Source of the DNA: Xanthomonas sp. NCPPB 1128
GTDB lineage: Bacteria > Pseudomonadota > Gammaproteobacteria > Xanthomonadales > Xanthomonadaceae
Direction: 5' to 3'
Assembly (NCBI RefSeq): GCF_001043115.1
Contig: NZ_LFME01000005.1
Span: 62,001 to 126,000 of the forward strand
DNA: 64,000 bases
Both the position numbers and the translations under genes were made by a program. Shown here piece after piece: positions 3,596-25,297 of this stretch (position 1 is its first letter; the number at the start of each line of letters is the position of its first letter). Below the pieces are notes generated by a model. The model saw nothing but the letters and a program-made list of their open reading frames with translations, searched no databases and was not told the origin of the DNA.

Positions 3596-3624
3596 TGGGT
3601 GCGCCTGCCACGGCCAAAGGTTGC
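3596..3624 (-). promoter_or_regulatory. Putative ECF-sigma promoter, toward HPr-kinase-like gene
   Basis: Reading leftward: GCAACCTTTG, 10 bases, GCGCACCCA. This is the least perfect of six copies of the GCAACCTTTC-N10-CGGCACnnA motif (two swapped bases in the second block). It ends 31 bases before the start codon. Paired head to head with another copy at 3647. Confidence 0.65.
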
Positions 3625-3646
3625 GCGGGCGATGCCGGTGTTTCGC

Positions 3647-3675
3647 GCAACCAAACGCCGCAGCCACGGCACCTA
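3647..3675 (+). promoter_or_regulatory. Putative ECF-sigma promoter, toward radical SAM gene
   Basis: Reads GCAACCAAAC, 10 bases, CGGCACCTA, ending 75 bases before the radical SAM start codon. Same spacing as the other five copies; the divergent copy at 3596-3624 serves the opposite strand. Confidence 0.7.
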
Positions 3676-3749
3676 CCGCCACGGCCACCTGCGCGCGGCC
3701 ATCGCTGCATGCGCCCCTCCCCCGCGGCGCCGAATGAGACCTTTCGCCG

Positions 3750-5258
3750 ATGCTCAAGATCCAGGTCAGCCACTCCTACTTCCTGCGCTACGACCCCAAG
3801 CAATGGGAACGCGGCAAGCCGTACCCGCCGCTGGCCACGCTGCAGGTGGCTTCGCTGCTGCGCCAGCACGGACACCAGGTGACGCTGTTCGACGCGATGC
3901 TCGCCGAGGGCGTGGAGGACTACGACCATGCCGTCCGCACGCAGCGGCCGGACCTGGTGGTGTTCTACGAGGACAACTTCAACTTCCTCACCAAGATGTG
4001 CCTGAGCCGGATGCGCGAGGCCGCGTGCCGGATGATCGCCGAGGCGCGCGCCGGCGGCAGCCGGGTGATCGTCGCCGGCTCCGATGCATCGGACCATCCG
4101 GAGGCGTTTCTCGCTGCCGGCGCCGACGCGGTATTGATCGGCGAAGGCATCGCGGCCTTGCTGGAACTGGTGGCGCGCCTGCAGGCGGAACCGGACATCG
4201 ACCCGGCGCGCTGGGTGGCCGGCATCGCCGAGGTGGCCAGCGCGGCGATGCCGCAGCTCAAGCGCGCACAGATCGGCGCGCGGCCGCCGGATCCGCGGCT
4301 GTCGGTAACGGCGGCCTGGGACCTGCTGGACATCGCGCGCTACCGCGCGTTCTGGCAGCAGCAACACGGCCATTTCAGCCTGAACATGGCTGCATCGCGC
4401 GGTTGCCCGTTCCGCTGCAACTGGTGCGCCAAGCCGATCTGGGGCAATCACTACAAGCGCCGCGAGGCGCAGGACGTGGCCGCGGAGATGACCCAGCTCA
4501 AGCGCAACTTCGCGCCCGACCATGTGTGGATGGCCGACGATATCTTCGGCTTCCACATCGACTGGGTGGAGGACTTCGCCGACGCGCTGGCCGCCGCCGA
4601 CGGCACGGTGCCCTTCACCATCCAGACCCGCGCCGACCTGTGCAGCGAGCGCATGACCGCGGCCCTGGCGCGGGCCGGCTGCCGCGAAGCCTGGATCGGC
4701 GCGGAGAGCGGCAGCCAGCGCATCCTCGACAAGATGACCAAGGGCACCGACGTGGATGGCGTGATTGCCGCGCGCCAGCGGCTGGGCGCGCAGGGCATCC
4801 GCGTCGGCTTCTTCCTGCAGCTGGGTTACCTGGACGAGCAACTCGACGACATCCTCGCCACGCGCCGGCTGGTGGCGCAGGCGCGCCCGGACGACATCGG
4901 CGTCAGCGTGTCCTATCCCCTGCCCGGCACCGTGTTCTATCAACAGGTCAAGGACCAGCTCGGGCGCAAGACGCACTGGCAGGACAGCGACGACCTGGCG
5001 ATGATGTTCCGCGGTGCCTACGACTCGGCGTTCTATCGCCAGGTGCGCGATCTGCTGCACCGGCAGGTGGACCTGCAATGCCGCGAGGATGCGTGCCCGG
5101 CGCTGGCGCACGCGCAGGACTGGGCAGCGCTGGAAGCCGACTGGGCGGCGCTGATCGCGCGCGAGGCGCAGCACCGGACCGAGGCGCCACCAGTGCCGGC
5201 AGCCGAGGCCGTCGCCGCCGGTAGCGGCCGCCGCATTCCCCTGGTGCAGCGCGCATGA
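3750..5258 (+). CDS. B12-binding-domain radical SAM protein (502 aa)
   Basis: The N-terminal 160 residues have the Rossmann-like cobalamin-binding fold pattern (IQVSHSYF, then VTLFDAML, DLVVFYED, VIVAGSDA, DAVLIGEG). The radical SAM core follows with the 4Fe-4S motif CPFRCNWC (C219, C223, C226), and the C-terminal half continues with the BchE-like pattern YPLPGTVFY. Members methylate, cyclise or rearrange diverse substrates; the substrate cannot be read from sequence. It is translationally coupled to the nucleotidyltransferase gene by an ATGA overlap. A second protein of the same family and length is encoded at 8963-10474. Start ATG at 3750 is the first Met before the conserved strand. Confidence 0.85.
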   Translation: MLKIQVSHSYFLRYDPKQWERGKPYPPLATLQVASLLRQHGHQVTLFDAMLAEGVEDYDHAVRTQRPDLVVFYEDNFNFLTKMCLSRMREAACRMIAEARAGGSRVIVAGSDASDHPEAFLAAGADAVLIGEGIAALLELVARLQAEPDIDPARWVAGIAEVASAAMPQLKRAQIGARPPDPRLSVTAAWDLLDIARYRAFWQQQHGHFSLNMAASRGCPFRCNWCAKPIWGNHYKRREAQDVAAEMTQLKRNFAPDHVWMADDIFGFHIDWVEDFADALAAADGTVPFTIQTRADLCSERMTAALARAGCREAWIGAESGSQRILDKMTKGTDVDGVIAARQRLGAQGIRVGFFLQLGYLDEQLDDILATRRLVAQARPDDIGVSVSYPLPGTVFYQQVKDQLGRKTHWQDSDDLAMMFRGAYDSAFYRQVRDLLHRQVDLQCREDACPALAHAQDWAALEADWAALIAREAQHRTEAPPVPAAEAVAAGSGRRIPLVQRA

Positions 5259-6538
5259 GCGACCTGACGACGCCGCCGAATCCGGCCATGGCGGCCGACC
5301 TGCCGACAGCGGCACCCGCGGCGACGCCGGCGCATCTGCCGCTGCGGCGCATCGGCCGTGGCCTGCGCCTGGTCACCGAAACCCTGGCGCACGAGCTGGC
5401 ACGCCCTGGTGCGGCGATGCCGGACTGGAGCGGTCTGCATTGGCAACTGGCCGCAGCGGCGGCTGTCGCGCACGGCGTAGCGCCATTGCTGAGCCAGCGC
5501 TCGCAGTGGCCGGACCGACCATGGCGCGCGTTCCTGGACGGGCAACGCGAGCACGTGGCGCATCGCTACCAGCGCATCGCCGCGCTGCTGCAGCGGATCG
5601 ACGCCCTGGCGCAGACCGCCGGCCTGGCGATCGTGCCGCTGAAGGGCGCGGCGCTGCATGCGCTAGGCCTCTATCGGCCCGGCGACCGTCCGATGGCCGA
5701 CATCGACCTGCTGGTACGCCCCAAGGACGCCGAGCGCGCCGCCACGCTGCTCGCCGCGCTGGGCTACGTGGCCGAGTTCGTGCAGTGGAAGCACCAGACA
5801 TTCCGCCCGGCGCAGGCGCAGGCCGTGCCGGCACTGGGCGAGCACCGCGACGCCCCGATCAATATCGAACTGCACGTGCGCATCCAGGAGCGCCTGCCGC
5901 TGCGCACCGTCGACCTCGGCGTGCAGATCCTGCCGCACGACGGCAAGCCCGGCCTGAATCCCTACCCGAGCAACGGCGCGCTGATGCGCCACCTGCTGCT
6001 GCACGCGGCCGGCGGGCTGTGCAGCCGCAGCCTGCGGCTGATGCACCTGCACGACCTGGCCCTGCTCGCGCCGCGCATGCGCGCCAGCGACTGGCACGTG
6101 CTGACCGGCGCCGATGCCTGGTGGGCATGGCCGCCGCTGCGGCTGATGCTGCACTACTACCGCGCCGCGATTCCGTCGGCGGTACTGAAGCAACTGCGTG
6201 CGCAATGCCCGCCGCTGCTGCGGCTGCGCGCGCGCGGGCTGGACCTGACCGCGGCGTCGTGCTCGCAATTGTGGCTGCCGGCACTGCCGGGCATCGAGTG
6301 GGCACGCTCTGGTCGCGAGGTGCTGGACTATCTGCGCCAGCGCCTGCAGCCCTCGGCGGAAAGCCGGCAGGAACGCGCCGAGATGATCCGCACCCAGTTG
6401 TGGTTGCAGGGCCAGGACTGGGTGCGCCTGCCGCAGCGTCGCCGTGTGCTGCAGCGGCTGCTGCGGCCGGTGCCGCGGATGGACACGCTGTACGCGGTGC
6501 GGACCGCGCTGCAGGGCTATGCGCCATCTTCTGACTGA
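5255..6538 (+). CDS. Nucleotidyltransferase family protein (NTP_transf_5 type, 427 aa)
   Basis: Contains the hallmark VPLKGAALH (about 128-136) and RPMADIDLLV (about 145-154), whose two Asp residues bind metal in the nucleotidyltransferase fold. The family (PF14907-like) is found in lasso-peptide and exopolysaccharide loci, often beside HPr-kinase-like proteins, as here across the divergent promoter. Its reaction is unproven; transfer of a nucleotide to a peptide, phosphate or sugar is possible. The first 35 residues are low-complexity Ala/Pro. The ATG overlaps the preceding radical SAM stop by 4 bases, so both proteins are made together. Confidence 0.8.
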   Translation: MSDLTTPPNPAMAADLPTAAPAATPAHLPLRRIGRGLRLVTETLAHELARPGAAMPDWSGLHWQLAAAAAVAHGVAPLLSQRSQWPDRPWRAFLDGQREHVAHRYQRIAALLQRIDALAQTAGLAIVPLKGAALHALGLYRPGDRPMADIDLLVRPKDAERAATLLAALGYVAEFVQWKHQTFRPAQAQAVPALGEHRDAPINIELHVRIQERLPLRTVDLGVQILPHDGKPGLNPYPSNGALMRHLLLHAAGGLCSRSLRLMHLHDLALLAPRMRASDWHVLTGADAWWAWPPLRLMLHYYRAAIPSAVLKQLRAQCPPLLRLRARGLDLTAASCSQLWLPALPGIEWARSGREVLDYLRQRLQPSAESRQERAEMIRTQLWLQGQDWVRLPQRRRVLQRLLRPVPRMDTLYAVRTALQGYAPSSD

Positions 6539-8962: not shown

Positions 8963-10474
8963 CTAGATCCCGGACACTTGCGGCCGGTGCAGGCGCACCA
9001 GCCGGTTGGCGAGGTTCAGTTCCCATGGCCGGTCGTAGCGCCGGTAGCGGTAGCGCCACGCGGCCAGTGCGCTGAGGCCGCGCTTGGCCCAGCCCGGCGA
9101 GCGCTGGTCCTGGGCGGTGGGATAGCGGCAGCCGAGCACGGTGACGAAATCGCGGATGCGCTGGCGCAGCGCATCGTTGAGCCAGGGCGCATCGGCGTGG
9201 CAGGCATAGTCCACCCACTGCGGCTGCGCCCACTCCTCCGGCGTGCGCGGGAACTGCACCGGCACGCCGTGGCGGTCGAGCAAAGGTATGCTGGGGCGGC
9301 GGCCACGATCCTTCTCGTGGCGGCTGCTCTCCGGCAGCGGCGTGTACACGTAGACGATGATCTCCGACTGTGGGTTGATCCGCTTCAGTTCGCGGATGAA
9401 CTCGAAGGTCTGCTCGGTCTCGCGCTCGCTGTCCTGCGGCGGCGCAACCATGAACGACAGTTCCGGGATCACCCCGTTGCGCCGGCAAAGCTCGGCCACT
9501 TCCAGGGTCTGGTCCGGCCGCGTGCCCTTGCGGATCTCCTTGAGCATCGCCCCGCTCGGCGACTCCGCGCCGATGTAGGCCATGCGCAGGCGGCTCTTGC
9601 GCACCAGCTTCCAGGTGCTCTCGGAGAGGTTGAGCAACGCGTCAGCGCGCGCGTAGCACCACCACGGCAGTTCCAGCTTCGCCATCACCTCCAGCAGCGG
9701 GATCATGTCGGCTTCGCGGTCGAAGAAGTTGTGGTCGAAGAACTGGATCGAGTCGGCGCCCAGACCGTATTTCAGATAGCCCAGCTCGCGCTCCAGGCGT
9801 GCCGCCGTGGGCAAGGCGGTGGCGCCGCCGAACATCGCCGCCACCCCGCAGAAGGTGCAGCGGAAACGGCAGCCCAGCGCAGCCTGGTGCGAGGCGGTGC
9901 GATTGCCGAGGAAGGTGCGGCCGAGGTAGCGGCGCGGCTCGCCGAGCTTTTCGTACGGCAGCGACGGCAGCGCGTCGCCGCGCTGGAAGGCGCGGTTGCG
10001 GTTGTGCACCACGGTGCCGTCGTTCTTCCAGGACAGTCCATCGACCTGCGCCAGCGTCGGCCCCTCGCCGCGCAAGGCGGCCAGCAGTTCCGGCAAGGTG
10101 TCCTCGCCCTGCGCGCGGATCGCGTAGTCCACGTACGGCGCGGCCAACGCGGTGTCCGGGTACAGCGTGGGAAAATAGCCGCCCCAGACGATCGGCAGCG
10201 CCGGGAAGCGCGCGCGGATGGCCTGCGACAGCGCGATCGACGGCGCCAGTTGCGGCCCGCCCATCACGCTGATGCCGACCGCATCGTAGTGCTGTTCCTG
10301 CAGCGCCTGCAGGCTGCGGTCGATGAAGTCGCGGTCGACGTTGCCGTCGATGATGCGGCTGTCGCCGTGGCGGTCCAGCGCCGCCGCCAGGTTCAGCAGC
10401 GACAGCGGAAAGCGGGCGCTGGACGGCTTGGTGATGGTGGGATTGACCAGCAGCGTATTGGGTGTGGAGGACAT
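8963..10474 (-). CDS. B12-binding-domain radical SAM protein (503 aa)
   Basis: N-terminal cobalamin-binding domain with the family pattern VGISVMGGPQ, IVWGGYFPTLYPD and DYAIRAQGEDTLPEL, followed by the radical SAM cluster motif CRFRCTFC (C202, C206, C209). BchE/hpn-like radical SAM enzymes of this build methylate or rearrange unactivated carbons. Start chosen at MSSTPNTLLVNPT, where the core strand begins. It sits between a methyltransferase and two glycosyltransferases, which suggests modification of the glycan or its lipid carrier, but no substrate is evident. Compare the related enzyme at 3750-5258. Confidence 0.85.
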   Translation of the reverse strand: MSSTPNTLLVNPTITKPSSARFPLSLLNLAAALDRHGDSRIIDGNVDRDFIDRSLQALQEQHYDAVGISVMGGPQLAPSIALSQAIRARFPALPIVWGGYFPTLYPDTALAAPYVDYAIRAQGEDTLPELLAALRGEGPTLAQVDGLSWKNDGTVVHNRNRAFQRGDALPSLPYEKLGEPRRYLGRTFLGNRTASHQAALGCRFRCTFCGVAAMFGGATALPTAARLERELGYLKYGLGADSIQFFDHNFFDREADMIPLLEVMAKLELPWWCYARADALLNLSESTWKLVRKSRLRMAYIGAESPSGAMLKEIRKGTRPDQTLEVAELCRRNGVIPELSFMVAPPQDSERETEQTFEFIRELKRINPQSEIIVYVYTPLPESSRHEKDRGRRPSIPLLDRHGVPVQFPRTPEEWAQPQWVDYACHADAPWLNDALRQRIRDFVTVLGCRYPTAQDQRSPGWAKRGLSALAAWRYRYRRYDRPWELNLANRLVRLHRPQVSGI

Positions 10475-10497
10475 ACGGGGCGAACGCAGGACGGGAG

Positions 10498-11193
10498 TCA
10501 CGGCAAACGCCGCAGCCGCAGCACCAGGGCCACCGGCACCTGCAACGCAGCGGGATCGAAATGGGCGCCGGCGGGAATGTCCGCCGGGTCGAGCATCGGT
10601 TCGCTGACCGCGTCGATGGCCAACCCGAGCGCGGCGCAGGCGGCGTGCCAGTGGCTGTACAGGTGCTGGGTGTGGCGCACCGCGTAGCGCTGGCCGCCGG
10701 CCTTGAAGTCGCGGCGCCAGCCCAGCGCCGGGCCGATCGGGTGCACGTCGCTGCACAGTACCCAGCCGCCGGGCCGGGTGACGCGGCGCAGCTCGGCCAG
10801 GGCCGGCGGCAACTGCGGCAGATGCCCCAGCGCCAGCGCGCAGAGGCTCAGGTCGACGCTGGCATCGGCAAGCGGCAAAGCCTCCAGGCTGCCTTCGCGC
10901 AGCGTGTAGCGGCCGGCATCGACGTCGCCAAGTTCCTGCGCGGCGCGTGCCAGCATCTGCGGCGACAGGTCCACGCCGGTGACGTACTCGGCGCCACGCT
11001 GCAGCGCATGCAGCAGGTAGCGTCCGCTGCCGCAGCCGGCATCAAGCACGTGCTGGCCGCGCAACGAGGGTGGCAGCAAGGCCAGCATGGCGCGCTGCTC
11101 GGCCTGCATCACCGGGTTGTGTGCCTGCGCCGGGTAGCTGCCCGCCCACAGCGCGTAGGCGGCGAGCGGATCGAGGGTCGGGACGGCGCTCAT
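10498..11193 (-). CDS. Class I SAM-dependent methyltransferase (231 aa)
   Basis: The SAM-binding motif I VLDAGCGSGRYL (about residue 48), the acidic end of strand 2 VTGVDLS, and motif LSLCALALGHL identify a Methyltransf_11-type enzyme. It would methylate a small molecule or sugar; the acceptor is unknown. The start overlaps the amidohydrolase stop by 4 bases; an alternative Met lies 3 codons upstream. The gene is one of two methyltransferases bracketing the amidohydrolase. Confidence 0.85.
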   Translation of the reverse strand: MSAVPTLDPLAAYALWAGSYPAQAHNPVMQAEQRAMLALLPPSLRGQHVLDAGCGSGRYLLHALQRGAEYVTGVDLSPQMLARAAQELGDVDAGRYTLREGSLEALPLADASVDLSLCALALGHLPQLPPALAELRRVTRPGGWVLCSDVHPIGPALGWRRDFKAGGQRYAVRHTQHLYSHWHAACAALGLAIDAVSEPMLDPADIPAGAHFDPAALQVPVALVLRLRRLP

Positions 11194-12422
11194 GCGTGGC
11201 ATTCCTGCGACAGGTGCGTCAGGCGTGAACGCGGCGGTGCAACCTGGCATTCCAGGCCGGGCTCCAACGCAAGCAGCGCGGGGTCGGCCAGCTCTGCGGC
11301 CAGCAGCTTCGGCACGCCGTCCAGCGTCACCGGCACCGTATCCACGCCGGCGGCGGCGAACCACGGCGCGAAATCGGGATCGGCGATCCGCGGCCGCCCG
11401 TCGCGCACCACTGCGCGCAGTGCGCTGCGCGGCAGCCCGACCAGGCTCTGCGCCGGCGCGCCGCCACGGTCGGCGACGATCAGCAGATCGGCGTGTGCGC
11501 CCGGCGCCAGATGCCCGCGATCCGGCAAGCGCAGGATGTCGGCTGCGGCAGTCGTGACCAGGGCCAGCGCCTGGGTCGCATCCAGCCCATGGGCGGCGGC
11601 CAGGCGCAGGTCCTCGAGCAGGTCGCGGCCGCCGCTGACCCGCGCATCGCTGCCCAGCGCCAGGCGTCCAGCCGCGCTCAGGCGCTGCGGGTCGAGGGTG
11701 CGTCCGAGCAGGGTCAGGTTGCTGCTCGGGCACCACACCACCGCCGCGCCGCAGGCGAGCACGCGCGCGACGTCGTCCGCGCCCAGGCCCACCCCGTGGA
11801 TCAGCACGGTGTTGTCGGCCAGACAGCCGCGCCGGTCCAGCTCGGCGAGTTCGCCGGCGGCCACCGCGTCGGTGCCTTCGGCCAGATGGATCATCCACGG
11901 CCAGCCGGCGACGGACGCCGCGGCGAAGCTCTGCGCCAGCGGCGGCCCGTAGTCGGGACCATGCAAGGTGTAGCTCCAGCCGAAGTCGCGCAGCAGCGCC
12001 ACCGGGAAGTCGGCCGCGTCCAGCGCCGCATGCCAGGGGTCGTGATGGGCCACGCAGGTCACCCCGGCCAGCAGGTTCTTCAACCCGCCATGGCGCAGCC
12101 GCAGCGCCTTGGGCAGGGCCAGTGCGGCGGCTACCGCCGGGGTGCGGAAATGCGCGGCGAAGGCGTCGATCCAGGCGTAGCTGTTGGCGAACGGCGCGGC
12201 TTGCGGCAGCGGCGGCACCGCATTGACGTGCAGATGCTCGTGGGCGTTGATCAAGCCTGGCAGCACCAATTCCCCATGCAGATCGATGCGCAGCGCGGCC
12301 GGCGTGGCCGCCGCGCCGATGCGGCCGGCGCGCAGCGCCAGTGGGGCGTGCACCGCGCCGACGGCATGCGCGACGCGCGCACCCTCCAGGCAGATGTCGA
12401 TGGGGGCGGCAGATGCGGCCAT
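11190..12422 (-). CDS. Metal-dependent amidohydrolase (410 aa)
   Basis: Belongs to the cytosine-deaminase/chlorohydrolase branch of the amidohydrolase superfamily. Visible metal ligands are HEHLH (H61, H63), HLAEG, HGVGL and LGSDARVSG (the catalytic Asp). The N- and C-terminal segments (GRIGAAATPAALRIDLHGELVLPGLINA and HLAPGAHADLLIV) form the usual beta-sandwich. Such enzymes hydrolyse C-N bonds in nucleobases or related rings, so a free amidohydrolase inside a glycan operon is unexpected. It is placed between two methyltransferases with a 2-base gap and a 4-base overlap. Substrate unknown. Confidence 0.85.
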   Translation of the reverse strand: MAASAAPIDICLEGARVAHAVGAVHAPLALRAGRIGAAATPAALRIDLHGELVLPGLINAHEHLHVNAVPPLPQAAPFANSYAWIDAFAAHFRTPAVAAALALPKALRLRHGGLKNLLAGVTCVAHHDPWHAALDAADFPVALLRDFGWSYTLHGPDYGPPLAQSFAAASVAGWPWMIHLAEGTDAVAAGELAELDRRGCLADNTVLIHGVGLGADDVARVLACGAAVVWCPSSNLTLLGRTLDPQRLSAAGRLALGSDARVSGGRDLLEDLRLAAAHGLDATQALALVTTAAADILRLPDRGHLAPGAHADLLIVADRGGAPAQSLVGLPRSALRAVVRDGRPRIADPDFAPWFAAAGVDTVPVTLDGVPKLLAAELADPALLALEPGLECQVAPPRSRLTHLSQECHA

Positions 12423-12424
12423 GC

Positions 12425-13273: not shown

Positions 13274-13335
13274 CTGCACCTCTCCACTGCCCTGCCCTTG
13301 TCGGAATCCGCGCATCGAGCGCGCGGGACTGCAGG

Positions 13336-13364
13336 TAGGTGCGGCTGCGGGGGCGTTTGGTTGA
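13336..13364 (-). promoter_or_regulatory. Putative internal ECF-sigma promoter
   Basis: Reading leftward: TCAACCAAAC, 10 bases, CCGCACCTA. It lies in the only sizeable gap (106 bases) of the glycan operon and ends 63 bases before the methyltransferase start. Spacing equals that of the other five copies; one base differs in each block. Confidence 0.6.
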
Positions 13365-16341: not shown

Positions 16342-17594
16342 CAGCCAAGTCCTCGCAGGTAGCGGCGCACCACCAGCACGTTGAACGCCAGGTACAGGGC
16401 GTAGTTGCAGGCGAACGCGTAGGCCGCGCCGATCAGCCCCGTGCGCGCGGTGAACAGCACCACCAGGCCCAGGTAGCTGGCGGCGAACAGGCATTCGGAG
16501 AACACGAACAGCCGCGTCATCGCCTTGGCCAGCATCAGGTAGGACAGCACGAAGGAGGCGATCTTGAGCACGTCGCCGAACAGCTGCGGCGCGTACAGCG
16601 GCAACGCGGCGGCGAAATCGGCCGAGAACAGCAGCTGGGTGATCCAGTCGCGGCACAGGTACACCGCCGCCGCGGCCAGGAGTACCGCCGGCAGCACGTA
16701 GCGGTAGGCACCGCGCAGTTCCTGCCACAGCGCCTGGCGCGTGTGCAGCGCCGCCAGCTTCGGCAGGTAGTAGACGTTGATGGCGGTGGTGAAGAACAGC
16801 AGGTAGGCATCGGAGACGCGGCTCACCGCCTGCCAGTAGCCGACCTGCTGCCAGCCGAGCTGGACGGCCAGATGGTCGCGCACGCCGATGTTGACCAGCA
16901 GCGGCAGTAGCGCCGAGGCCAGGGTCATCGCCGAGAACGCGGCCAGCCGCCGCACCATCGCCGGGTCGAAACGGATGCGCAGCATCTCGCGGCGGAAATA
17001 CGGACTGCGCCGCAGCGCCGGTACCCCGGCGCACAGCCAGGCCACCTGCCCCAGCACCAGCCCCAGCAGCGCGCCATACAAGCCAAGCCCATGCGCCAGG
17101 ACGGCCACCATCAGCACGCTCAGTACCGCGCCGGCGACCTGGATGAAGGCCAGCCGGCGCACGTCCATGAAGCCGTTGACCACCGCCAGGATGTAGTTGG
17201 CCAGCGCAATGCCGAGCTGCGCCACCGCCAGCACGCAGATCAGCGGCTGGTACTGCGCGTCGCCGAGCAGGCGCTCGGCGATCAGCCGGCTGCACAGCAG
17301 CGCGGCCACGCCCATCGCGACCGCGGCGACGCAGGCGTAGCCGAGAGCACTGCCGAGCAGCCGGGTCAGCGACTGCGCATCGTCGCGATACTCGGCCACG
17401 TACTTGACCACGCCGGCACCGATGCCGCCGCCGGCCACCACCGCCAGCAACGACATCAGGCTGGTGAACTGGCCGAGCCGGGCAACCCCGGCCGGGCCGG
17501 CGTACACCGCCACCAGCTTCAGCACCAGCAACGCGGACAGCAGCTTGGCCGCGGTGGCCACGCCGCTGTACATGCCGCTGCGCAGCACGTTCAT
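16341..17594 (-). CDS. Wzx-like oligosaccharide flippase (417 aa)
   Basis: A MATE/MOP-superfamily polysaccharide flippase with around a dozen hydrophobic helices. The N-terminal segment [25 protein letters not shown] and [11 protein letters not shown] resemble the WzxE (enterobacterial common antigen) branch. It would move undecaprenyl-diphosphate-linked repeat units to the periplasm. WzxE-type flippases are commonly encoded beside a WecE/FdtB-type aminotransferase, as here. Confidence 0.85.
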
Positions 17595-18721
17595 GCCGCC
17601 GCGTCACCGAAACGCTGGCAGGCGTCGATGACCTGCGCCACCGCCGCAGCGTCCAGGGTCGGGCCGATCGGCAGGCTGAGCACTTCGGCGCCGAGCCGCT
17701 CGCACAGCGGCAGCTGCAGCGTGGCCAGTTCCGGATAGGCCGGCTGGCGGTGCGGCAGCGTCGGGTAATGCACCAGGCAGTGCACGCCCTGGGCCTGCAG
17801 ATGCTGCTGAAGAGCATCGCGCTGCGCACAGCGCACCACGAACAGGTGCCAGGCATGCGCGGCCGGGTCGGCCACCTGCGGCAAGGCGATCCGCGGATGC
17901 GCGATGCCATCGAGGTAGCGCTGGGCGATCGCGCGGCGCGCCGCGATGTCGGCGTCCAGGTGGCGCAGCTTGACCCGCAACAGCGCCGCCTGCAGTTCGT
18001 CCAGGCGCGAGTTCACGCCCTGCAGCAGGTGCCGATACTTGATGTCCGAACCGTAGTTGCGCAGCGACCGCAATTGCGCCGCCAGCGCATCGTCGTCGGT
18101 GGTCACCGCGCCGCCATCGCCGAGCGCGCCCAGGTTCTTGCCAGGAAAGAAGCTGAAGCCGGCGGCATCGCCGAAGCTGCCGGCATGGCGGCCGTCGCGG
18201 CGGGCGCCATGCGCCTGCGCCGCGTCCTCGATCAACAGCAGGCCATGCTGCTCGGCGATGCCACGCAGCGCGGCCATGTCGGCGAGCTGCCCATACAGGT
18301 GCACCGCCAGGATCGCCTTGGTGCGCGGACCGATCGTGCGTTCCACCTGCGCCGGGTCCAGATTGAAGCTGGCCGCCTCCGGCTCCAGAGGCACCGGCCG
18401 CAGCCGGTTCTCGCTGATCGCCAGGAAGCTGGCGATGAAGGTATTGCCCGGAACCAATACCTCGTCGCCTTCGCGCAACCGGCCCAGTGCGCGGTAGCCG
18501 CGCAGGATCAGCGTCAGCGCGTCCATGCCATTGCCGACACCGATGGCGTGGGCGGTGCCGCAGTAGGCGGCGAACTCGCGCTCGAACGCCTCCAGTTCCT
18601 CGCCGAGCACGTACCAGCCGGAATCGATCACCCGCGCAGCAGCGGCCTTGAGCTCGTCGGCATGGCGCGCGTTGCTGGCGCGCAGGTCGAGGAACGGCAC
18701 GCTGGCCGGCGGCAGACTCAT
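17591..18721 (-). CDS. fdtB: Sugar 3-aminotransferase, DegT/DnrJ/EryC1 family (376 aa)
   Basis: PLP-dependent aminotransferase acting on a dTDP-3-keto-6-deoxyhexose. The PLP-binding Lys is in [14 protein letters not shown] (about K185) and the phosphate/ring-binding Asp is in [11 protein letters not shown]. Together with the FdtA-like isomerase and the PglD/FdtC-like acetyltransferase in the same operon it fits dTDP-3-acetamido-3,6-dideoxyhexose (Fuc3NAc or Qui3NAc) synthesis. The start has GGGAG 6-7 bases upstream and overlaps the preceding stop by 4 bases. The exact sugar configuration is not readable. Confidence 0.85.
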
Positions 18722-19653
18722 TGCAACTCCCAATGGTAGAAATCGTGGACCACGGCGCGTGCGCCGAAGCGCTCCTTCTGCTCGACCAGGCCGGCATTGA
18801 GCACCTGGCCCTGCTGCTCGGTGGAAATGCCCAGGCTGAGGAACGCGTGTTGCGCGTAGACCTGCTCGATCAGCTCGGCCAGCAGCAGGCTCAGCGCATC
18901 GGCGCGGCGGCCCGGCTCCGAGCAGGCCAGGTATTGGGTATGGACGACGTGGCCGAAGTCATAGACCAGCGTGCCGGCCAGCAGGTCGGCGCCATCGCGC
19001 ACTTCGTAGGGCACGATCTGCGCCGGGAAGCGCGCGCACAGCAGGCGCAGCTCGTCCAGGCTGTGGGTCGGGCGTGCGTCATGGCGTTGCAGCACCTCGC
19101 CGAGCAGCGCATGCAGTGGCGCCGGATCCTCCACCCGTTGCACGCGCAGCCCGGCGCGGCGCGCCTTGGCCACCGAACGCTTGCGCGCAGCCGCGAAGCG
19201 TGGCGGTTCGCGTAGCGGCACCGCTGAGGACAGGTCGCGGCGCTGCAGGCGCGCACCCAACCGATGCAGCGCGTACAGGTCCTCATCCGCCGGGCTGCGG
19301 TGGAACAGATGCGGCACCGCCTTGTACAGCAGCGTGCGTACGCCGGCGCCGCGGTAGTGCGCCGCGATGCGTTCGAACGCCTCCAGCGTCGCCGTCGCGC
19401 GCAGCGCGTGGGTCGACACCAAGCCGGCATAGCTGAGCCCGGCATGGCTGGTCACCGCGTCGCCATCGCGGTTGGCCGGAAACACCGCCACGGGGGTGCC
19501 AGCGTCCTCGATCAGCAACGAGGCATCGACGAAGCGCGCCGCGTGGTAGTCCATGTAGTCGCGCCGGTGCAGCAGATTGCCGTTGCGCGAGGCCTGCACT
19601 ACGGCATCCCACGCCGGCGCATCGGCCGCGGTGTAGGCCCTAACCGACAGCAT
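18718..19653 (-). CDS. GNAT-family acyltransferase, FemAB-like (311 aa)
   Basis: The layout matches GNAT proteins with a FemAB-like acyl-transferase fold (Acetyltransf_6): N-terminal [35 protein letters not shown], a central KARRAGLRV and C-terminal [24 protein letters not shown]. Such proteins acylate amino sugars or lipid-linked saccharides. It could work on the amino sugar produced by the FdtB-like enzyme or modify the finished repeat. It overlaps the preceding glycosidase-like gene by 14 bases. Confidence 0.75.
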
Positions 19654-20599
19654 CGCCGTCCTCCCACACCATGCCGGCGGGCACGTCCGCCTCGGCCACG
19701 CCGAAACCATCGCGGCCCATGGCGTTGCCGTTGTAGAACAGCAGCAGGCGCTCGCCGTGGCGAATCAGCGCCGGGTAGCACAGCGTGCGTGCGTCCCAGC
19801 CCTCGGCCGACAGCGGCAGGCCCAGCGCCGCGTCGCAGCGCTGCCACTGGCGGCCGTCGTCGCTGACCGCCATGCCGGGCAGATAGGCGCCGGCACGGCT
19901 GCCGTGAGTGAAGAGCATCAGATAGAGGCCATCGTGGCGGTACACCCGCGGGCGGCCGATGCGGTACTCGTCGCCTTGCGGCTGCAGGCAGGCCGTGTCC
20001 TGCCGCGGGATCGCCTGCAGGTCGTCGGTCTCCACGCAGCGGATGTGGTAGCGCGGGTACGGCGTGCCGCCGATCCATTCCCAGTCGTCGCCCACCGCGT
20101 ACCACAGCTGCCAGCGGCCATCGCGATAGCGCGCCGAATGCACCGCGGCGATGGTGCTGCGGCCCGGCGCGCGGTCCAGCAGCGGCGTGTCCTGGCGGCG
20201 CTGGAACGAATCGCCGCCGTCGGTGGACACCGCCAGGCCGGTGAAGGCCAGGAACTTGGCCCGCGCCACCTGCTGGAAGCCGACATAGAACATGTACAGG
20301 CCGTCCGGCCCCTGCACCACGTCGCCGAGGATCATGCCGTTGTCGTCGAAACAGCCGGCGCGGCCGATGTCCAGCACGGGTTCGGCGCTGACGCCCAGCA
20401 CCCGGGTTGGATCCTCGGCGCGCACGTCGACATAGCCGATGCGGCTGACCCCGGCCTCGTCGCGGAAGCCGGCGTAGATGCGCAGCCGCTCGGCATCCAG
20501 CCGCCACGGCGTTGGCGTCAGCGCCGAGTGCTGCATCCAGCCACCGACGCCGTGGCGCGCGGTGTCGAACACCAATCCGCGTTTGTGCCAGGCGAACAT
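19640..20599 (-). CDS. Beta-propeller glycosidase-like protein (319 aa)
   Basis: Repeating blade-like segments (GLVFDTARHGVGGWMQHSA, MILGDVVQGPDGLYMFYVGF, GLAVSTDGGDSF, SRAGAYLPGMAVSDDGRQW, HGERLLLFYNGN) resemble the five-bladed propeller of GH43/GH130-type enzymes. No signal peptide is present, so it acts in the cytoplasm, where it may process or phosphorolyse sugar intermediates, or be a transferase. Similar proteins occur inside O-antigen clusters without known function. Five bases separate it from the acetyltransferase gene upstream. Confidence 0.65.
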   Translation of the reverse strand: MFAWHKRGLVFDTARHGVGGWMQHSALTPTPWRLDAERLRIYAGFRDEAGVSRIGYVDVRAEDPTRVLGVSAEPVLDIGRAGCFDDNGMILGDVVQGPDGLYMFYVGFQQVARAKFLAFTGLAVSTDGGDSFQRRQDTPLLDRAPGRSTIAAVHSARYRDGRWQLWYAVGDDWEWIGGTPYPRYHIRCVETDDLQAIPRQDTACLQPQGDEYRIGRPRVYRHDGLYLMLFTHGSRAGAYLPGMAVSDDGRQWQRCDAALGLPLSAEGWDARTLCYPALIRHGERLLLFYNGNAMGRDGFGVAEADVPAGMVWEDGDAVG

Positions 20600-20604
20600 G
20601 CGCC

Positions 20605-21270
20605 TCACAGTTCCACGTCGAAGCTGGACTTGCCGGCCACCACCCGTGCAGGTGCACCGACATAGATGCGTCCGGGCTCGGTGTCGCGGGTCAGCAGCGC
20701 GCCGGCGCCGATCACGTTGTCGGCGGCCACCTTGACCCGGTCGCTGAGCGTGGCGTTGACCCCGACGAAGCTGGACGCGCCGATCTCGCAATAGCCGGAA
20801 ATCACCGCGTGCGAGGCCACGAACACATGGTCGTGGATCACGGTGCGGTGGCCCACATGGTTGCCGCTCCACAGGATGCAGTTGGCGCCGATGCGGGTGA
20901 ACGGCTGCAGCACGTTGTGCTCGAACACGAAGCAGTGCTCGCCCAGTTCCACGTTGCGCCAGACGAAGGCGTGCGAGCTGACGTAGCTGGCCATGCGGTA
21001 GCCCCGGCGCTTGGCATCCACATAGAAACGCGTGCGCAGCCGGTTGAGGCCGCTGGCGGGAATCGCCACGAACACCTCCACCTGCGACGGCGGATACCGT
21101 TGCTCGAGGTCCTCGTAGGCCACCACCGGCAGGCCGGTTAGGGTCGGCGCGGACAGGTAGTCGCGCTCCACGCTGAAGGCCAGCACCTCGTAGTCGCTGT
21201 CGTGGGTGAAGTACTCGCAGGCGATCTGCGCCAGTTCGCCGGCGCCGACGATGACCAGGGGACGCGCCAT
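20605..21270 (-). CDS. Sugar O/N-acetyltransferase, NeuD/PglD family (221 aa)
   Basis: N-terminal nucleotide-sugar-binding Rossmann segment (LVIVGAGELAQIACEYF) followed by a left-handed beta-helix of hexapeptide repeats (about 95-205: IGANCILWSG, HVFVASHAVISGY, IGASSFVGVNAT, DNVIGAGALL). In the context of FdtA and FdtB it is best placed as the N-acetyltransferase completing a dTDP-3-acetamido-3,6-dideoxyhexose. Its length and build match PglD/NeuD; FdtC itself is usually shorter, so the role is by context. Confidence 0.8.
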   Translation of the reverse strand: MARPLVIVGAGELAQIACEYFTHDSDYEVLAFSVERDYLSAPTLTGLPVVAYEDLEQRYPPSQVEVFVAIPASGLNRLRTRFYVDAKRRGYRMASYVSSHAFVWRNVELGEHCFVFEHNVLQPFTRIGANCILWSGNHVGHRTVIHDHVFVASHAVISGYCEIGASSFVGVNATLSDRVKVAADNVIGAGALLTRDTEPGRIYVGAPARVVAGKSSFDVEL

Positions 21271-21273: not shown

Positions 21274-21690
21274 CTAGGCCTCCTGCCGGCGTAGGCCCGC
21301 CGCTTCGCGCAGGAACTCGTCGTAGTCGAAGATGTAGTCGGTGGGGTCGTAGGCCTGGTCGGCGAGCACCATCAGCACGCAGTCCGCGCTGAAGTCGTAG
21401 AGATCGCGCCAGACCATGCTGCCGAGCAGCAGGCCCTGGCGCGGATCGTCCAGTACCACCTGCATCGGGCCGCTGCCGTCGTCGAGCAGGAACGACACCG
21501 ATCCGTGCAGCGCCACCGCCAACTGGTTGAGATGGCGGTGCGCATGCTGGCCGCGGTGCACGCCGTTGCGGGTGGCGAACAGGTAATAGACGCGGCGGAT
21601 GTCGAAAGGCACGTCGCGCTGTTGCTCCAGCGCCACGAGCTGGCCGCGCGCGTCGCCGTGCGTCCGCAACTGGATTCGTTCGATTGCCAT
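21274..21690 (-). CDS. fdtA: dTDP-4-keto-6-deoxyglucose 3,4-ketoisomerase (138 aa)
   Basis: A small cupin of the WxcM-like/FdtA family. It carries HRGQHAHRHLNQ with the two active-site histidines at positions 49 and 51, as in characterised FdtA, and the C-terminal YDPTDYIFDYDEFL typical of the family. It isomerises the 4-keto to the 3-keto sugar before transamination by the FdtB-like enzyme. Length is that of a complete FdtA. First gene of the long glycan operon, 40 bases below an ECF-type promoter motif. dTDP-glucose synthesis genes (rmlA, rmlB) are not in the window. Confidence 0.9.
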   Translation of the reverse strand: MAIERIQLRTHGDARGQLVALEQQRDVPFDIRRVYYLFATRNGVHRGQHAHRHLNQLAVALHGSVSFLLDDGSGPMQVVLDDPRQGLLLGSMVWRDLYDFSADCVLMVLADQAYDPTDYIFDYDEFLREAAGLRRQEA

Positions 21691-21729: not shown

Positions 21730-21758
21730 TGAGTGCCGCGGGTCTGCGGAAAGGTTGC
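21730..21758 (-). promoter_or_regulatory. Putative ECF-sigma promoter of the fdtA operon
   Basis: Reading leftward: GCAACCTTTC, 10 bases, CGGCACTCA; ends 40 bases before the fdtA start. The first block is identical to that upstream of the sigma gene. Back to back with the copy at 21781. Confidence 0.75.
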
Positions 21759-21780: not shown

Positions 21781-21809
21781 GCAACCTTTCGCCACAGCGC
21801 CGGCACCCA
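21781..21809 (+). promoter_or_regulatory. Putative ECF-sigma promoter of the cytochrome operon
   Basis: Reads GCAACCTTTC, 10 bases, CGGCACCCA, ending 83 bases before the cytochrome b561 ATG. Only 22 bases separate it from the divergent fdtA promoter motif. Confidence 0.75.
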
Positions 21810-21892: not shown

Positions 21893-22480
21893 ATGACCTC
21901 GCCCACGCCGGCCGCCCCGAAACCGCCTGTCTCCCCACCCGACGCGTCGACGCCATTGCCGCGGCCGATGGTGTGGCTGCACTGGCTCACCGTGCTGTGC
22001 CTGGTGCTGGCGGCGGGGCTGATCCTGCTGCGCGAAGAAGTGGAAGGCCGCATGTGGCGGCAGTGGTTGCTGGAAGGGCATCGCCACTTCGGCCTGTTCG
22101 TGCTCGGCCTGTTCTGCGTGCGCGTGGCGTTGCGCATGCGTCTGGGCAAGCGTCACGACGCGGAGGCCGGTTCGGCGCTGATGCGCTTCATGGCCGGCGC
22201 CACCCACGTGGTGATGTACGCGCTGCTGCTGACCTTGCCGGTGCTGGGTTGGACGCTGAGTCAATCGATGGGCAAGCCGGTGCATCTGTTCGGCGCAACC
22301 CTGCCCGAGCTGGTCGCGCCCGATCCCGATCTCGCCGACACCCTGGGCGCCTGGCATGTGGATGCGGCCTGGCTGCTGCTCGGCCTGATCCTGCTGCACA
22401 TCGGCGCGGCCCTGTGGCACCACCTCGTCCGCCGCGACGCCGTGCTGCATCGCATGGTGCCGTTCCTGCGCCGCCGCTGA
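21893..22480 (+). CDS. Cytochrome b561-family membrane protein (195 aa)
   Basis: A di-haem b-type cytochrome with four hydrophobic helices. Candidate axial histidines lie in VWLHWLTV, GHRHFGLF, GATHVVMY and LLHIGAALWHH, which is the CybB-like pattern. It would transfer electrons between the quinone pool and a periplasmic partner. The neighbours are a porin-cytochrome and a soluble cytochrome c, so it is the likely inner-membrane end of an electron path. The ATG at 21893 opens the protein with a short Pro/Ala-rich lead before the first helix. Confidence 0.85.
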   Translation: MTSPTPAAPKPPVSPPDASTPLPRPMVWLHWLTVLCLVLAAGLILLREEVEGRMWRQWLLEGHRHFGLFVLGLFCVRVALRMRLGKRHDAEAGSALMRFMAGATHVVMYALLLTLPVLGWTLSQSMGKPVHLFGATLPELVAPDPDLADTLGAWHVDAAWLLLGLILLHIGAALWHHLVRRDAVLHRMVPFLRRR

Positions 22481-22547: not shown

Positions 22548-23912
22548 ATGCACCAGTCCCCATCGTCCCCCTCCACCTTCTCCCGCAGCGACAGGACGCG
22601 CGGCGCCGAGCAGGCGCTGCTGTGGTCGGCGCTGGGTTCGCTGCTGCTGGTGCTGAGCCCGCGCGCGGCTGCGGTGCCGGCGTTCGCGCGGCAGACCGGC
22701 TCGTCCTGCGCCGACTGCCACATCGGCGCCTACGGCCCGGCGCTGACCCCGTACGGCATGCGTTTCAAGCTCGGCGGCTACACCGACAGCGACGGCAACG
22801 GCACCAAGATCCCGGCCTCCGCACAGCTCACCGCCAACCGCAGCGTGCCGGCGCGCGGCGAGAGCCGCACCCGTTTCAGTGAGGCCGACCTGTACCTGGC
22901 CGGGCGCATCACCGACAACGTCGGCGGCTACGTCAAGGTCGCCACCACCAACAACGGCAAGAACGACTACACCACGCGCCTGGACAACGTGGACCTGCGC
23001 GCGGTGGTCAAGAGCTTCCAGCTCGGCGGCAAGGACACCCTGCTCGGCGTCAGCGTCAACAACAACCCCGGCAGCCAGGACCCGATCGGCATGCTGCCCA
23101 ACGCCTCCGGCCTGGGTCCGGCCTCGGCCTATTCCAGTTCGACCACGCTGCTCAATCAGTCGTCGCTGTCCAACCGGGTGATCGGCACCAGCGTGTACGG
23201 CCTGTACGATCGCAACTGGTACGGCGAACTCGGCACCTACACCGCCCTGCCGGTGTCGACCCAGGACGACCTGGGCTACGCCGTCGGCGGCGATCCCGGC
23301 AAGCTCAGCGACACCGGCTACCTGCGCCTGAGCTACATGAAGGACCTCAAGCGGCAGTTCTTCTCCGCCGGCGTGGTCGCACTCACCACGCGCAGGCAGC
23401 TGCCGCGCAGCACCGGCCCGCGCGACGACTTCACCGATCTCGGCTACGACCTCAACTACCAGTTCCTGGGCACCCGCGAGCACATCCTCAAGCTCGGCTA
23501 CCTCAACATCTACGAGCGCCGCCGCTACGGCAGCGCGCTGATCGACCCGACCAACCCGGCCCTGGCCGGCCCGCGCCGGGCCAGCGTGCGTGACCAGTCG
23601 ATCAGCCTCAACTACACCTACAAGCAGAGCTACAGCCTGCTGCTGGCGCACTTCATCAACACCGGTTCGGACGATCCGTTCCGCTACCGCCCGTACGGTG
23701 CGCCGGACACCACCAGCAACCTGATCAGCGCCTCGTGGGCGCCGTTCGGCAAGGACGACAGCTACTCGTCGATCTCCAACCTGCGCCTGTCCGCGACCTG
23801 GTTCCGTTTCAGCAAGTTCAACGGCAGCACCGGCAACGTGTTCGGGGCCACCCCGGTCACCCGTCCGCGCGACCTCAACCAGTTCGCGCTGAGCCTGAGC
23901 CTCGCTTTCTGA
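22548..23912 (+). CDS. Outer-membrane fused cytochrome-porin, Cyc2-like (454 aa)
   Basis: After a signal peptide (about residues 1-42) comes AVPAFARQTGSSCADCH with a single c-type haem site CADCH (C54, C57, H58), followed by GPALTPYGMRFKLGGYT. The remaining ~370 residues are alternating beta-strand segments ending in LSLSLAF, with the C-terminal Phe typical of outer-membrane barrels. A single N-terminal haem fused to a barrel, with the FARQTG...C..CH and LTPxGxxFKxxGY pattern, is the architecture of Cyc2, the Fe(II)-oxidising outer-membrane cytochrome. Homologues outside iron oxidisers exist, so the electron donor or acceptor is not established. AAAGGA lies 8 bases before the ATG. Confidence 0.8.
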   Translation: MHQSPSSPSTFSRSDRTRGAEQALLWSALGSLLLVLSPRAAAVPAFARQTGSSCADCHIGAYGPALTPYGMRFKLGGYTDSDGNGTKIPASAQLTANRSVPARGESRTRFSEADLYLAGRITDNVGGYVKVATTNNGKNDYTTRLDNVDLRAVVKSFQLGGKDTLLGVSVNNNPGSQDPIGMLPNASGLGPASAYSSSTTLLNQSSLSNRVIGTSVYGLYDRNWYGELGTYTALPVSTQDDLGYAVGGDPGKLSDTGYLRLSYMKDLKRQFFSAGVVALTTRRQLPRSTGPRDDFTDLGYDLNYQFLGTREHILKLGYLNIYERRRYGSALIDPTNPALAGPRRASVRDQSISLNYTYKQSYSLLLAHFINTGSDDPFRYRPYGAPDTTSNLISASWAPFGKDDSYSSISNLRLSATWFRFSKFNGSTGNVFGATPVTRPRDLNQFALSLSLAF

Positions 23913-23935: not shown

Positions 23936-24331
23936 ATGAAACGCACCAACCCCTTGTCCCTGTGTACCCTGCTGGCCGGCCTGCTGCCGCTGGCTGCCGC
24001 GGTAGCGCCGTCCGCGCATGCCGCCGGCGGCGCGCCAGGTGCCGGCGTGTTCGCCAGCGAATGCGCCGAATGCCATAGCGCCGCGCCGGCCAAGAACAAG
24101 AAGGGCCCGACCCTGTTCGGCGTGGCCGGGCGCCGCGCCGGCAGCGTGCCGGACTACGCCTATTCCGACGCGATGAAGCAGAGCCAGTGGACCTGGAGCG
24201 ACGACAAGCTGCGCAGCTACCTGTCGCAACCGGCGTCCAAGGCCCTGCCGGGCGGCAAGATGAAGTACGACGGCCTGGACGATGCCAAGCAGTTGCAGGA
24301 CCTGATCGCCTACCTGCACAGCCTGCATTGA
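23936..24331 (+). CDS. Periplasmic class I cytochrome c (131 aa)
   Basis: Signal peptide ending near AHA (residue 29), then one haem site CAECH (C43, C46, H47) and a distal Met in PGGKMKY (about M109). The spacing and the segment GPTLFGVAGRRAGSV match cytochrome c2/c550-type electron carriers. It would shuttle electrons between the outer-membrane cytochrome-porin encoded 23 bases upstream and an inner-membrane acceptor. GGAG precedes the ATG by 8 bases. Confidence 0.92.
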   Translation: MKRTNPLSLCTLLAGLLPLAAAVAPSAHAAGGAPGAGVFASECAECHSAAPAKNKKGPTLFGVAGRRAGSVPDYAYSDAMKQSQWTWSDDKLRSYLSQPASKALPGGKMKYDGLDDAKQLQDLIAYLHSLH

Positions 24332-24502
24332 ACTCGCTGCCCGATCGGGTCATATTCGGCGCCCCACGGGCCGGCCACCGCGCCGCGCCCGTGTCCGATC
24401 CCTGACCTGCGAGCCTCGAGCCACCGTGCGTTTTCTCCCTGCCGTCCGCGGCACCTCGTCGTGGCTTCCCGCCGCACCCCGGCAGCGCGGGGCGGCCAGG
24501 GC

Positions 24503-25261
24503 ATGCTGAACATGCGCGTGGGCCGGCTCGCCGCGACAGCCCGGCCGTCAGCGCGTCCAGGCGCCGGTGCGGCGCTGGCCGTGGGCCTGGCGCTCGCCGC
24601 CCTGCACGCACCGGCGGCGAGGGCCGGCGATGTCGGCGGCGCCGCCGGAATCAGCTCGCAGCTGGTCGACCGCGGTATCGCGCTGACCCGCGACACTCCG
24701 ACCCTACAGGGTGCGCTGTTCTGGCTGCCGGCGCCGGGCTGGTCGCTGAGCGGCTCGGCCAGTGTGGCGCTGGACGCGCCGGGCAAGGTGCTGATGAGCA
24801 GCGTCGGCCTGTCGCGCAGCTGGACCGTGTCCGACAGCTGGCAGCTGCAGGCCGAGGCGCTGCTGTACCGCTACCCCGGCGCGCGCGCCAACCGCCTGTT
24901 CAACCGGGATGAAGTCAGCCTGGGCTGGAGCTACCGCGACCGCCTGAGCCTGTCGGTGGCCGCGTTCCGCCTGCCCGACAGCCGCCTGCGTCAGCGCTGG
25001 TATGGCGCGCTCGACGTCACTGCGCACCAGCCGCTGGCCGGTCCGCTGTCGCTGTCGGCCGGCGTCGGCATCAGCGAAGCCCCGCAGGCCCTGTATGGAC
25101 TGCCGTACGCCACACACCACTATCGCTACGGCCACTCCGGGCTGATCTGGAACGCCGGGCGCTGGAGCGTGGAGGTGGACCGGGTGTTCAGCAACGCCCG
25201 CAGCGGCTATGCCGACCGCGGCCTGTGGCCCTGGGTGGCCAGCGTCTCCCGCAGCTTCTGA
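24503..25261 (+). CDS. Outer-membrane-like secreted protein (252 aa)
   Basis: A long signal sequence (ALAVGLALAALHAPAARA, ending about residue 40) is followed by beta-strand-rich sequence: ISSQLVDRGIALTRDTPTLQGALFW, then paired amphipathic strands ending in ASVSRSF with a terminal Phe. The SSQLVDRG segment recalls the gcw_chp/TIGR02001-type outer-membrane family, though the match is loose. Start at 24503 or three codons later; an earlier in-frame Met would give an unusually long signal peptide. It ends only 8 bases before the sigma promoter motif and is probably part of the cytochrome operon. Function unknown. Confidence 0.7.
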   Translation: MLNMRVGRLAATARPSARPGAGAALAVGLALAALHAPAARAGDVGGAAGISSQLVDRGIALTRDTPTLQGALFWLPAPGWSLSGSASVALDAPGKVLMSSVGLSRSWTVSDSWQLQAEALLYRYPGARANRLFNRDEVSLGWSYRDRLSLSVAAFRLPDSRLRQRWYGALDVTAHQPLAGPLSLSAGVGISEAPQALYGLPYATHHYRYGHSGLIWNAGRWSVEVDRVFSNARSGYADRGLWPWVASVSRSF

Positions 25262-25268
25262 GTCGAGC

Positions 25269-25297
25269 GCAACCTTTCCGTGCCGCCCCGGCACATA
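25269..25297 (+). promoter_or_regulatory. Putative autoregulated ECF-sigma promoter
   Basis: Reads GCAACCTTTC, 10 bases, CGGCACATA and ends 27 bases before the sigma-factor ATG. Location upstream of a sigma gene is the classic place for an autoregulated ECF promoter and is the anchor for interpreting the other five copies. Confidence 0.8.

Follow-up and report, generated by a model that had tools for sequence, protein, structure and literature searches.

Promoter-like sites and regulatory genes of the locus

The window analysed here, meaning a whole stretch of 64,000 nucleotides of Xanthomonas sp. NCPPB 1128 (contig NZ_LFME01000005.1, positions 62,001 to 126,000), lies on contig C5 of the 4.95 Mb host genome (G000). 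It carries a gene for an extracytoplasmic function (ECF) sigma factor and six short sites of identical spacing, which face this gene and five neighbouring units. The sites and the regulatory genes are the following, with positions counted from the first nucleotide of the window and the class denoting the triplet after CAACC:

3596..3624, minus strand: predicted promoter 1, TTT class, facing the HprK-like gene
3647..3675, plus strand: predicted promoter 2, AAA class, facing the gene of the B12-binding radical SAM enzyme rSAM1
13336..13364, minus strand: predicted promoter 3, AAA class, facing the methyltransferase gene
21730..21758, minus strand: predicted promoter 4, TTT class, facing the fdtA glycan operon; 0 mismatches to the strict motif
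21781..21809, plus strand: predicted promoter 5, TTT class, facing the cytochrome b561/Cyc2-like operon; 0 mismatches
25269..25297, plus strand: predicted promoter 6, TTT class, facing the sigma gene (predicted autoregulation); 0 mismatches
25325..25906, plus strand: ECF sigma factor, RpoE4/XAC1682 type by gene order (Pfam; PDB sigma-E structures)
25903..26547, plus strand: membrane anti-sigma factor with zinc motif HxxxCxxC (zf-HC2 just below cut-off)
26544..27866, plus strand: S8 subtilase with lipobox and D/H/S triad (Pfam Peptidase_S8; sequence)

The initial annotation of the window had drawn six such sites, and all six were recovered at their positions and on their strands. Two patterns were used: a strict motif, GCAACCTTTC-N10-CGGCACNNA, with 17 fixed positions and up to three mismatches allowed, and a core motif, CAACCWWW-N13-GCACNYA, which was derived from the conserved columns of the sites. 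The strict motif matched the window five times, compared with 0.22 times on average and at most twice in 100 shuffles. There was no mismatch at 21730 (minus), 21781 (plus) and 25269 (plus), and there were three mismatches each at 3596 (minus) and 3647 (plus). The variation of one to three bases originally ascribed to the sites held, as zero or three mismatches, for these five; the site at 13336 (minus) is present but deviates at five of the 17 fixed positions. The distances of 27 to 83 bases to a start codon likewise stood for five sites (27, 30, 39, 74 and 83 bases) and failed for the methyltransferase site, whose 20 bases were measured to an in-frame ATG at 13315, a start that is uncertain.

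The spacing, described as identical at all six sites, proved to be so: when the two halves were set 7 to 20 bases apart, matches in the window were obtained only at a gap of 13 bases (six matches). Core matches in the window comprised only the six sites, in agreement with the original statement that none was seen in its other intergenic regions. A shortened core, GCAACC...GCACNNA with two mismatches, was uninformative, giving 38 window matches where 35 were expected. The equal gap of 22 bases between the two back-to-back site pairs looked striking but was found to be variable in relatives.

Occurrence in the host genome, the genus and the family

In the whole host genome, the strict motif gave 18 matches, three of them with no mismatch, none with one or two and 15 with three; two of the last group are the local sites 3596 and 3647, the other 13 being outside the locus. 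The reversed strict pattern gave 14 matches, which implies that the strict motif at three mismatches is background outside the locus. The core motif, by contrast with its reversed control (0 matches), had exactly six matches, and these are the six window sites. A genome-wide scan had been suggested at the outset, with many random matches counting against the proposed regulon; with all core matches local, the proposal withstood it.

The comparison was extended to a genus set of 20 genomes, including the host genome, and to a family set of 395 genomes. The sigma gene was found in 17 of the 20 genus-set genomes, and 14 of these carriers (the host included) have exactly six core sites, all in the locus. 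The remaining carriers have five (G010), five (G013) and two (G001). The HprK site of G010 reads TTC and is thus missed by the core pattern; in G013, several local sites deviate, and two of the five core matches are distant from the locus, the only distant ones in the genus set. The HprK and rSAM1 sites are kept in 15 of the 16 other genus carriers, the exception being G001. The gene for the Cyc2-like cytochrome-porin described below was found in the same 17 genomes as the sigma gene, and the three genomes without the sigma gene have 0 core sites and also lack Cyc2, rSAM1 and the linked ccmC. The reversed core gave one match over all 20 genomes.

At the family level, a homologue at no less than 66% identity was counted as the sigma gene, which made 56 of the 395 genomes carriers; ten further matches at 38–47% were counted as being without it. 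At least two core sites were found in 52 of the 56 carriers, one site in one carrier and none in three, whereas the 339 other genomes comprised 15 with one site each and none with two. This amounts to 279 core sites in carriers (distant matches included) versus 15 in the other genomes. The strict pattern with at most one mismatch occurred in 50 of the 56 carriers versus 3 of the 339 others. The reversed strict control with one mismatch gave eight matches in eight family genomes, and the reversed core gave 39 matches in 36 of the 395 genomes, with two together in three of the 395 (both controls counted by eye). The rSAM1 gene was present in 53 of the 395 genomes, all of them among the 56 carriers, and is missing from the carriers G001, G270 and G347.

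A similar distant core match was seen in three Xanthomonas sensu stricto genomes (G330:C1:1729777, G260:C5:119342 and G384:C1:4617288) and is perhaps an additional target of that group.

Conservation of the sites in other genera

From 138 stretches encoding a relative of the sigma factor, the best 80 were taken as named loci; they span Xanthomonas, Dyella, Luteibacter, Rhodanobacter, Frateuria, Pinirhizobacter, metagenome bins and nine Burkholderiales/Nevskia loci. Fifteen sites from the genus set of the host served to train a matrix, which was then tested on the 76 loci outside that set (1.41 Mb). At a score of at least 17, it found 194 sites and none in the reversed control; at a score of at least 15, there were 200 versus 4. 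In the gap test, the 80 loci gave 143 matches at 13 bases, three at 14, one at 15 and none at any other gap.

Counts per gene were made with in-frame queries at a matrix score of at least 15, among loci having the gene and its upstream DNA. The genes preceded by a site are the same in loci of Xanthomonas, Dyella, Luteibacter and Rhodanobacter. The sigma gene is preceded by a site in 28 of 28 Xanthomonas sensu stricto loci, in 39 of 39 Rhodanobacteraceae-type loci at a limit of 340 bases (38 of 39 at 330 bases) and in five of eight Burkholderiales/Nevskia loci; outside the training genus, this makes 72 of 75 loci with a site of predicted promoter activity. For fdtA, the figures are 28/28 in Xanthomonas sensu stricto and 29/32 in Rhodanobacteraceae-type loci, for b561 28/28 and 27/28, and for the methyltransferase 2/2 and 6/8. 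The site facing the HprK-like gene (promoter 1) is also present in Xanthomonas sensu stricto.

The constant core of the 80 loci consists of a TorF-like gene (78), the sigma gene (80), the anti-sigma gene (80) and the subtilase gene (79), and the zinc motif HxxxCxxC was found in the gene next to the sigma gene in all 80. Within the locus DNA examined, the cytochrome half and the glycan half can be absent independently, ccmC was found in none of the 39 Rhodanobacteraceae-type loci, and none of the glycan genes of the set turned up in X. albilineans (L127). In L127, positions 4300–6460, where the glycan operon would begin, read in our own interpretation of the DNA as a stretch resembling an insertion sequence (IS) transposase, and a well-scoring fdtA-type site faces it. 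A Cyc2 match was absent from L174 and L175 (Rhodanobacter, Frateuria) and from the bins L187, L188, L189, L190 and L193, while their glycan-unit genes are kept.

In two Burkholderiales loci, sites scoring 28.2 (L196) and 22.8 (L198) precede a gene pair of another kind:

L196 7419–9017 and L198 2121–3718: CXXCH lipoprotein and haem-barrel (CXXCH-barrel) fusion protein, behind a sigma-type site

The same lipoprotein/barrel pair occurs in L202, where no site was found. Homology of this barrel protein with Cyc2 was detected no further than the haem segment, over 33 columns at 33% probability (E 0.00045).

Anatomy of the predicted promoters

Across 264 distinct sites, information is concentrated in CAACC, GCAC and the final A, and the 13-base spacer carries little. 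The scan behind this set required CAA at columns 2–4 and a matrix score of 13, by which part of the conservation is built in, but not the near-random spacer. CAACC, found at all six window sites, corresponds to the AAC of an ECF −35 element, and we infer that the sites are targets of the sigma factor.

The triplet after CAACC separates the sites by downstream gene. In tallies where the gene queries served for placing only, AAA was found at 27 of 27 distinct rSAM1 sites and at 16 of 18 methyltransferase sites (the other two read AAT), whereas the sigma, HprK, b561 and fdtA genes, with 218 distinct sites between them, never showed it. Outside the 264-site set, class exceptions are the sigma-gene sites of G196 (AAA) and G323 (AAT). 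There are accordingly two predicted subclasses, CAACC-AAA and CAACC-TTT, which are kept by downstream gene across genera, with exceptions.

Identity of the sigma factor

The 193-residue sigma factor matched only the Pfam models of sigma-70 region 2, region 4 and ECF sigma factors. It is very probably the ortholog of Xanthomonas RpoE4 (XC_2566, XCC1665, XCV1718, XAC1682), as judged from gene order and distribution, because XAC1679, which is CcmC (PMC2653504), lies three numbers from XAC1682, matching the order sigma factor, anti-sigma factor, subtilase, ccmC. RpoE4 is given for all listed Xanthomonas strains and for none of the listed Pseudomonas, Ralstonia and Erwinia strains, and the single sigma mutants other than rpoE1 are described there as unchanged in virulence (PMC6085468). 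Our literature search found no published regulon or targets of RpoE4 in the portions of the sources that were available.

Like E. coli sigma-E, the protein has sigma2 and sigma4 only, and its gene adjoins that of a membrane anti-sigma factor. Further points in common are AAC in the predicted −35 element and autoregulation, which for the present protein is a prediction; the sigma-E structures 1or7 and 6jbq align with it. It differs in its −35 helix (IKARLFHAR here, VRSRIFRAR in sigma-E), in a predicted −10 element GCACNYA without CGT, in having six predicted promoters that are all local and in the adjoining subtilase lipoprotein. The nearest known arrangement is that of an ECF sigma factor with a zinc-motif (class I) anti-sigma factor. 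EcfK/PknS of X. citri is likewise a Xanthomonas ECF sigma factor with a neighbouring regulator, but that regulator is a Ser/Thr kinase which activates EcfK, and EcfK serves the type VI secretion system (PMC13147305).

Cytochrome unit and ccm genes

The units on either side of the sigma gene contain the following genes for electron transfer and cytochrome c maturation:

21893..22480, plus strand: cytochrome b561 (Pfam Ni_hydr_CYTB)
22548..23912, plus strand: Cyc2-like fused monohaem cytochrome-porin, 454 residues (AVPAFARQT..CADCH; barrel model)
23936..24331, plus strand: cytochrome c (Pfam Cytochrom_C)
24503..25261, plus strand: TorF-like putative porin (NCBIfam TIGR02001, below cut-off)
27876..32371, plus strand: ccmC, E, F, G and H, closely spaced (Pfam; G from a Redoxin match and its place)

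Cyc2 of Fe(II) oxidisers is described as having a single N-terminal CXXCH, AXPXFAR[QK][TY] before and PXL after it, a porin-like barrel and more than 365 residues (PMC8406198). The window protein resembles it: the signature AXPXFAR[QK][TY] stands before CXXCH, and a porin barrel is predicted after the haem domain in a chain of more than 365 residues. The beta-barrel model is of modest confidence and matches solved porins; Foldseek alone gave TM-scores of 0.2–0.42 against the PDB, and the fold match relies more on further structure comparison. The sequence profile of the protein found no useful relative among solved structures (best E 0.21).

The strict Cyc2 expression was matched by 30 of 59 relatives examined, drawn from the 62 named loci that gave a Cyc2 match; of the 29 misses, 12 were inspected, and ten have Y for F and two have A for P. 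The present proteins differ from known Cyc2 in standing beside b561 under a predicted ECF promoter and, in Dyella-type members, in reading AXPXYAR. Cyc2 homologues in Xanthomonas have already been published, several having been removed as over-sampled (PMC8406198), a link of Cyc2 to a cluster with Rhodanobacteraceae homologues is described (PMC10654088), and FeGenie treats cluster 3 Cyc2 as indicating probable oxidation and possible reduction (PMC7005843).

The host genome holds a second ccmC (55% identical) on contig C1. Four genomes without the sigma gene (G015, G016, G019 and G297) have one ccmC match each, at 52–56%, and G270 and G347 have, besides the ordinary ccmC, only a shortened match at 66–69%. 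The ccm genes at the locus are predicted to be a second, sigma-linked cytochrome c maturation set.

Glycan and further units

The remaining units comprise the following genes:

692..2452, minus strand: ABC transporter, membrane and ATPase parts (Pfam ABC_tran, ABC_membrane)
2504..3565, minus strand: HprK-like P-loop protein (Pfam Hpr_kinase_C below cut-off; NCBIfam HprK_rel_A/B far below)
3750..5258, plus strand: B12-binding radical SAM enzyme rSAM1 (Pfam)
5255..6538, plus strand: NTP_transf_5 nucleotidyltransferase-like protein (Pfam)
6680–7810 and 7813–8961, minus strand: two group-1/4-type glycosyltransferases (Pfam)
8963..10480, minus strand: second B12-binding radical SAM enzyme, rSAM2 (Pfam)
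10498..13315, minus strand: methyltransferase MT1, amidohydrolase, methyltransferase MT2 (Pfam)
13380–14240, minus strand: Wzz-like chain-length protein (Pfam Wzz)
14237–15463, minus strand: Wzy-like membrane protein (no Pfam match; name inferred from context)
15400..17594, minus strand: GT2 glycosyltransferase and Wzx-like flippase (Pfam Glycos_transf_2, Polysacc_synt)
17591..21270, minus strand: DegT aminotransferase, GNAT, an unassigned protein, hexapeptide acyltransferase (Pfam)
21274..21690, minus strand: FdtA-like sugar-nucleotide isomerase (Pfam FdtA)

The HprK-like and ABC-transporter genes run divergently from rSAM1 and NTP_transf_5. The glycan part is predicted to be a Wzx/Wzy-type cluster. 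With operon limits inferred from direction and spacing, the units downstream of the sites sum to about 30 genes. The fdtA unit also encodes a conserved protein of 321 residues (19640–20605) with no Pfam match. A protein at 33575–34498 showed a weak CVNH-domain match, below cut-off.

Proposed mechanism and alternative explanations

The six sites are, with high likelihood, promoters of RNA polymerase carrying the ECF sigma factor encoded at 25325–25906, which would make the locus a local regulon. Each predicted promoter would consist of a −35 element, CAACC followed by TTT or AAA, and a −10 element, GCACNYA, with 13 bases between them. An envelope signal would free the sigma factor from the zinc-motif membrane anti-sigma factor, a release that the subtilase lipoprotein may mediate, and the freed sigma factor would then read its own operon and the five neighbouring units. 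Judged by the promoter code, it would have no further targets in the host genome. The regulon of about 30 genes put forward in the initial annotation gains support from comparative genomics, as a prediction.

Several observations weigh against this interpretation. The −10 element lacks CGT, which is common in ECF promoters; CGT is described as a hallmark of early ECF groups that is no longer a defining feature (PMC8103513). Single core matches mean little, given the matches of the reversed control, and the Fisher values for the core and strict associations (9e-61 and 8e-53) ignore relatedness. The carriers G181, G270 and G347 have no core site and G323 has one only; G270 and G347 also have no rSAM1 and a shortened ccmC match, and the rSAM1 match of G181 is interrupted by a stop, and these site-less carriers may represent locus decay. 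Among the matches listed, one or two distant core matches were found in each of six Xanthomonas sensu stricto genomes (G239, G260, G330, G335, G359 and G384), and exclusivity of the core in this group is near-complete, not absolute. The training of the matrix included the sites of the window, so that only the other genera provide an independent test, and there the sigma gene lacks a site reaching the threshold in three of the eight Burkholderiales/Nevskia loci.

It is quite improbable that the sites are promoters of another ECF sigma factor or are shared by several. Many ECF promoters share AAC in their −35 element (PMC8103513), and ten group IV sigma factors are reported for X. campestris 8004 (PMC6085468), but the core occurs nowhere else in the host genome, its presence tracks this sigma gene over 395 genomes, and outside the training genus 72 of 75 loci have a site upstream of the sigma gene itself. 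It is also scarcely probable that the sites serve as operators for a local DNA-binding protein, be it an activator or a repressor, and are not sigma-type elements. The sites are known from sequence alone, and a response-regulator-like gene lies at 33056–33571; this gene, however, is outside the units, and no other DNA-binding regulator was found among the families identified inside them. The two halves form neither a palindrome nor a direct repeat, the fixed gap fits a −35/−10 spacing, and the orientation matches the downstream gene. That the sites have no function and were left behind by duplicated DNA, or by DNA that spread recently, is hardly credible: there are six similar copies inside 22 kb, and the L127 site facing the IS-like stretch implies that relics can occur, but across genera the blocks are constant and the spacers and flanks dissimilar, and the sites keep their position before the same genes.

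A further alternative accepts the regulon and concerns its non-cytochrome half, which would make a peptide- or lipid-type product instead of a Wzy-type surface polysaccharide. HprK-like, NTP_transf_5, ABC-transporter and B12-radical SAM genes are frequent in peptide or lipid modification loci; set against this, Wzx, Wzz, three glycosyltransferases, FdtA and DegT are encoded within the same units, and we regard such a product as unlikely.

On the interpretation as promoters of the local sigma factor, two outputs are predicted. One would be an electron route of b561, cytochrome c and the Cyc2-like haem-porin, with the locus-linked ccm genes, along which electrons could travel in either direction, linking the quinone pool with the surface Cyc2-like protein by way of b561 and cytochrome c. 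The other, made simultaneously, would be a surface glycan of Wzx/Wzy type, carrying an Fdt-type amino sugar and joined by the functions of the two B12-radical SAM enzymes and of the HprK-like, NTP_transf_5 and ABC-transporter proteins. The electron conduit may form the core of the system, because two Burkholderiales loci with the same sigma factor, anti-sigma factor and subtilase have a site before a different haem-barrel fusion. These two loci (L196 and L198) are the basis which suggests that an outer-membrane haem-barrel may be the older partner of the sigma factor. Only tentatively do we propose a joint function, in which one sigma factor, through a code used nowhere else in the host genome, would switch on both outputs as one inherited unit, and electrons would be exchanged with a donor or acceptor in the polymer coat of the cell itself.

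Significance

ECF regulons are already known, and what distinguishes the one predicted here is the closed target set, the unusual −10 element and the cargo. Xanthomonas Cyc2 homologues are already in print, to which the predicted promoter and the partners are added here. New are the promoter code, its near-exclusivity and the tie of a predicted Cyc2-like conduit to a glycan.

The result is a complete regulon prediction, with about 30 genes behind six promoters, and it concerns a sigma factor that 17 of the 20 genus-set genomes and 56 of the 395 family genomes carry. With so nearly exclusive a code, the system offers a clean case of a regulon kept and lost together with its regulator. These plant and soil bacteria are heterotrophs, and Cyc2-like proteins, which have been proposed to mark iron oxidation, are here tied to a predicted inducible envelope programme, which implies that the marker may need care.

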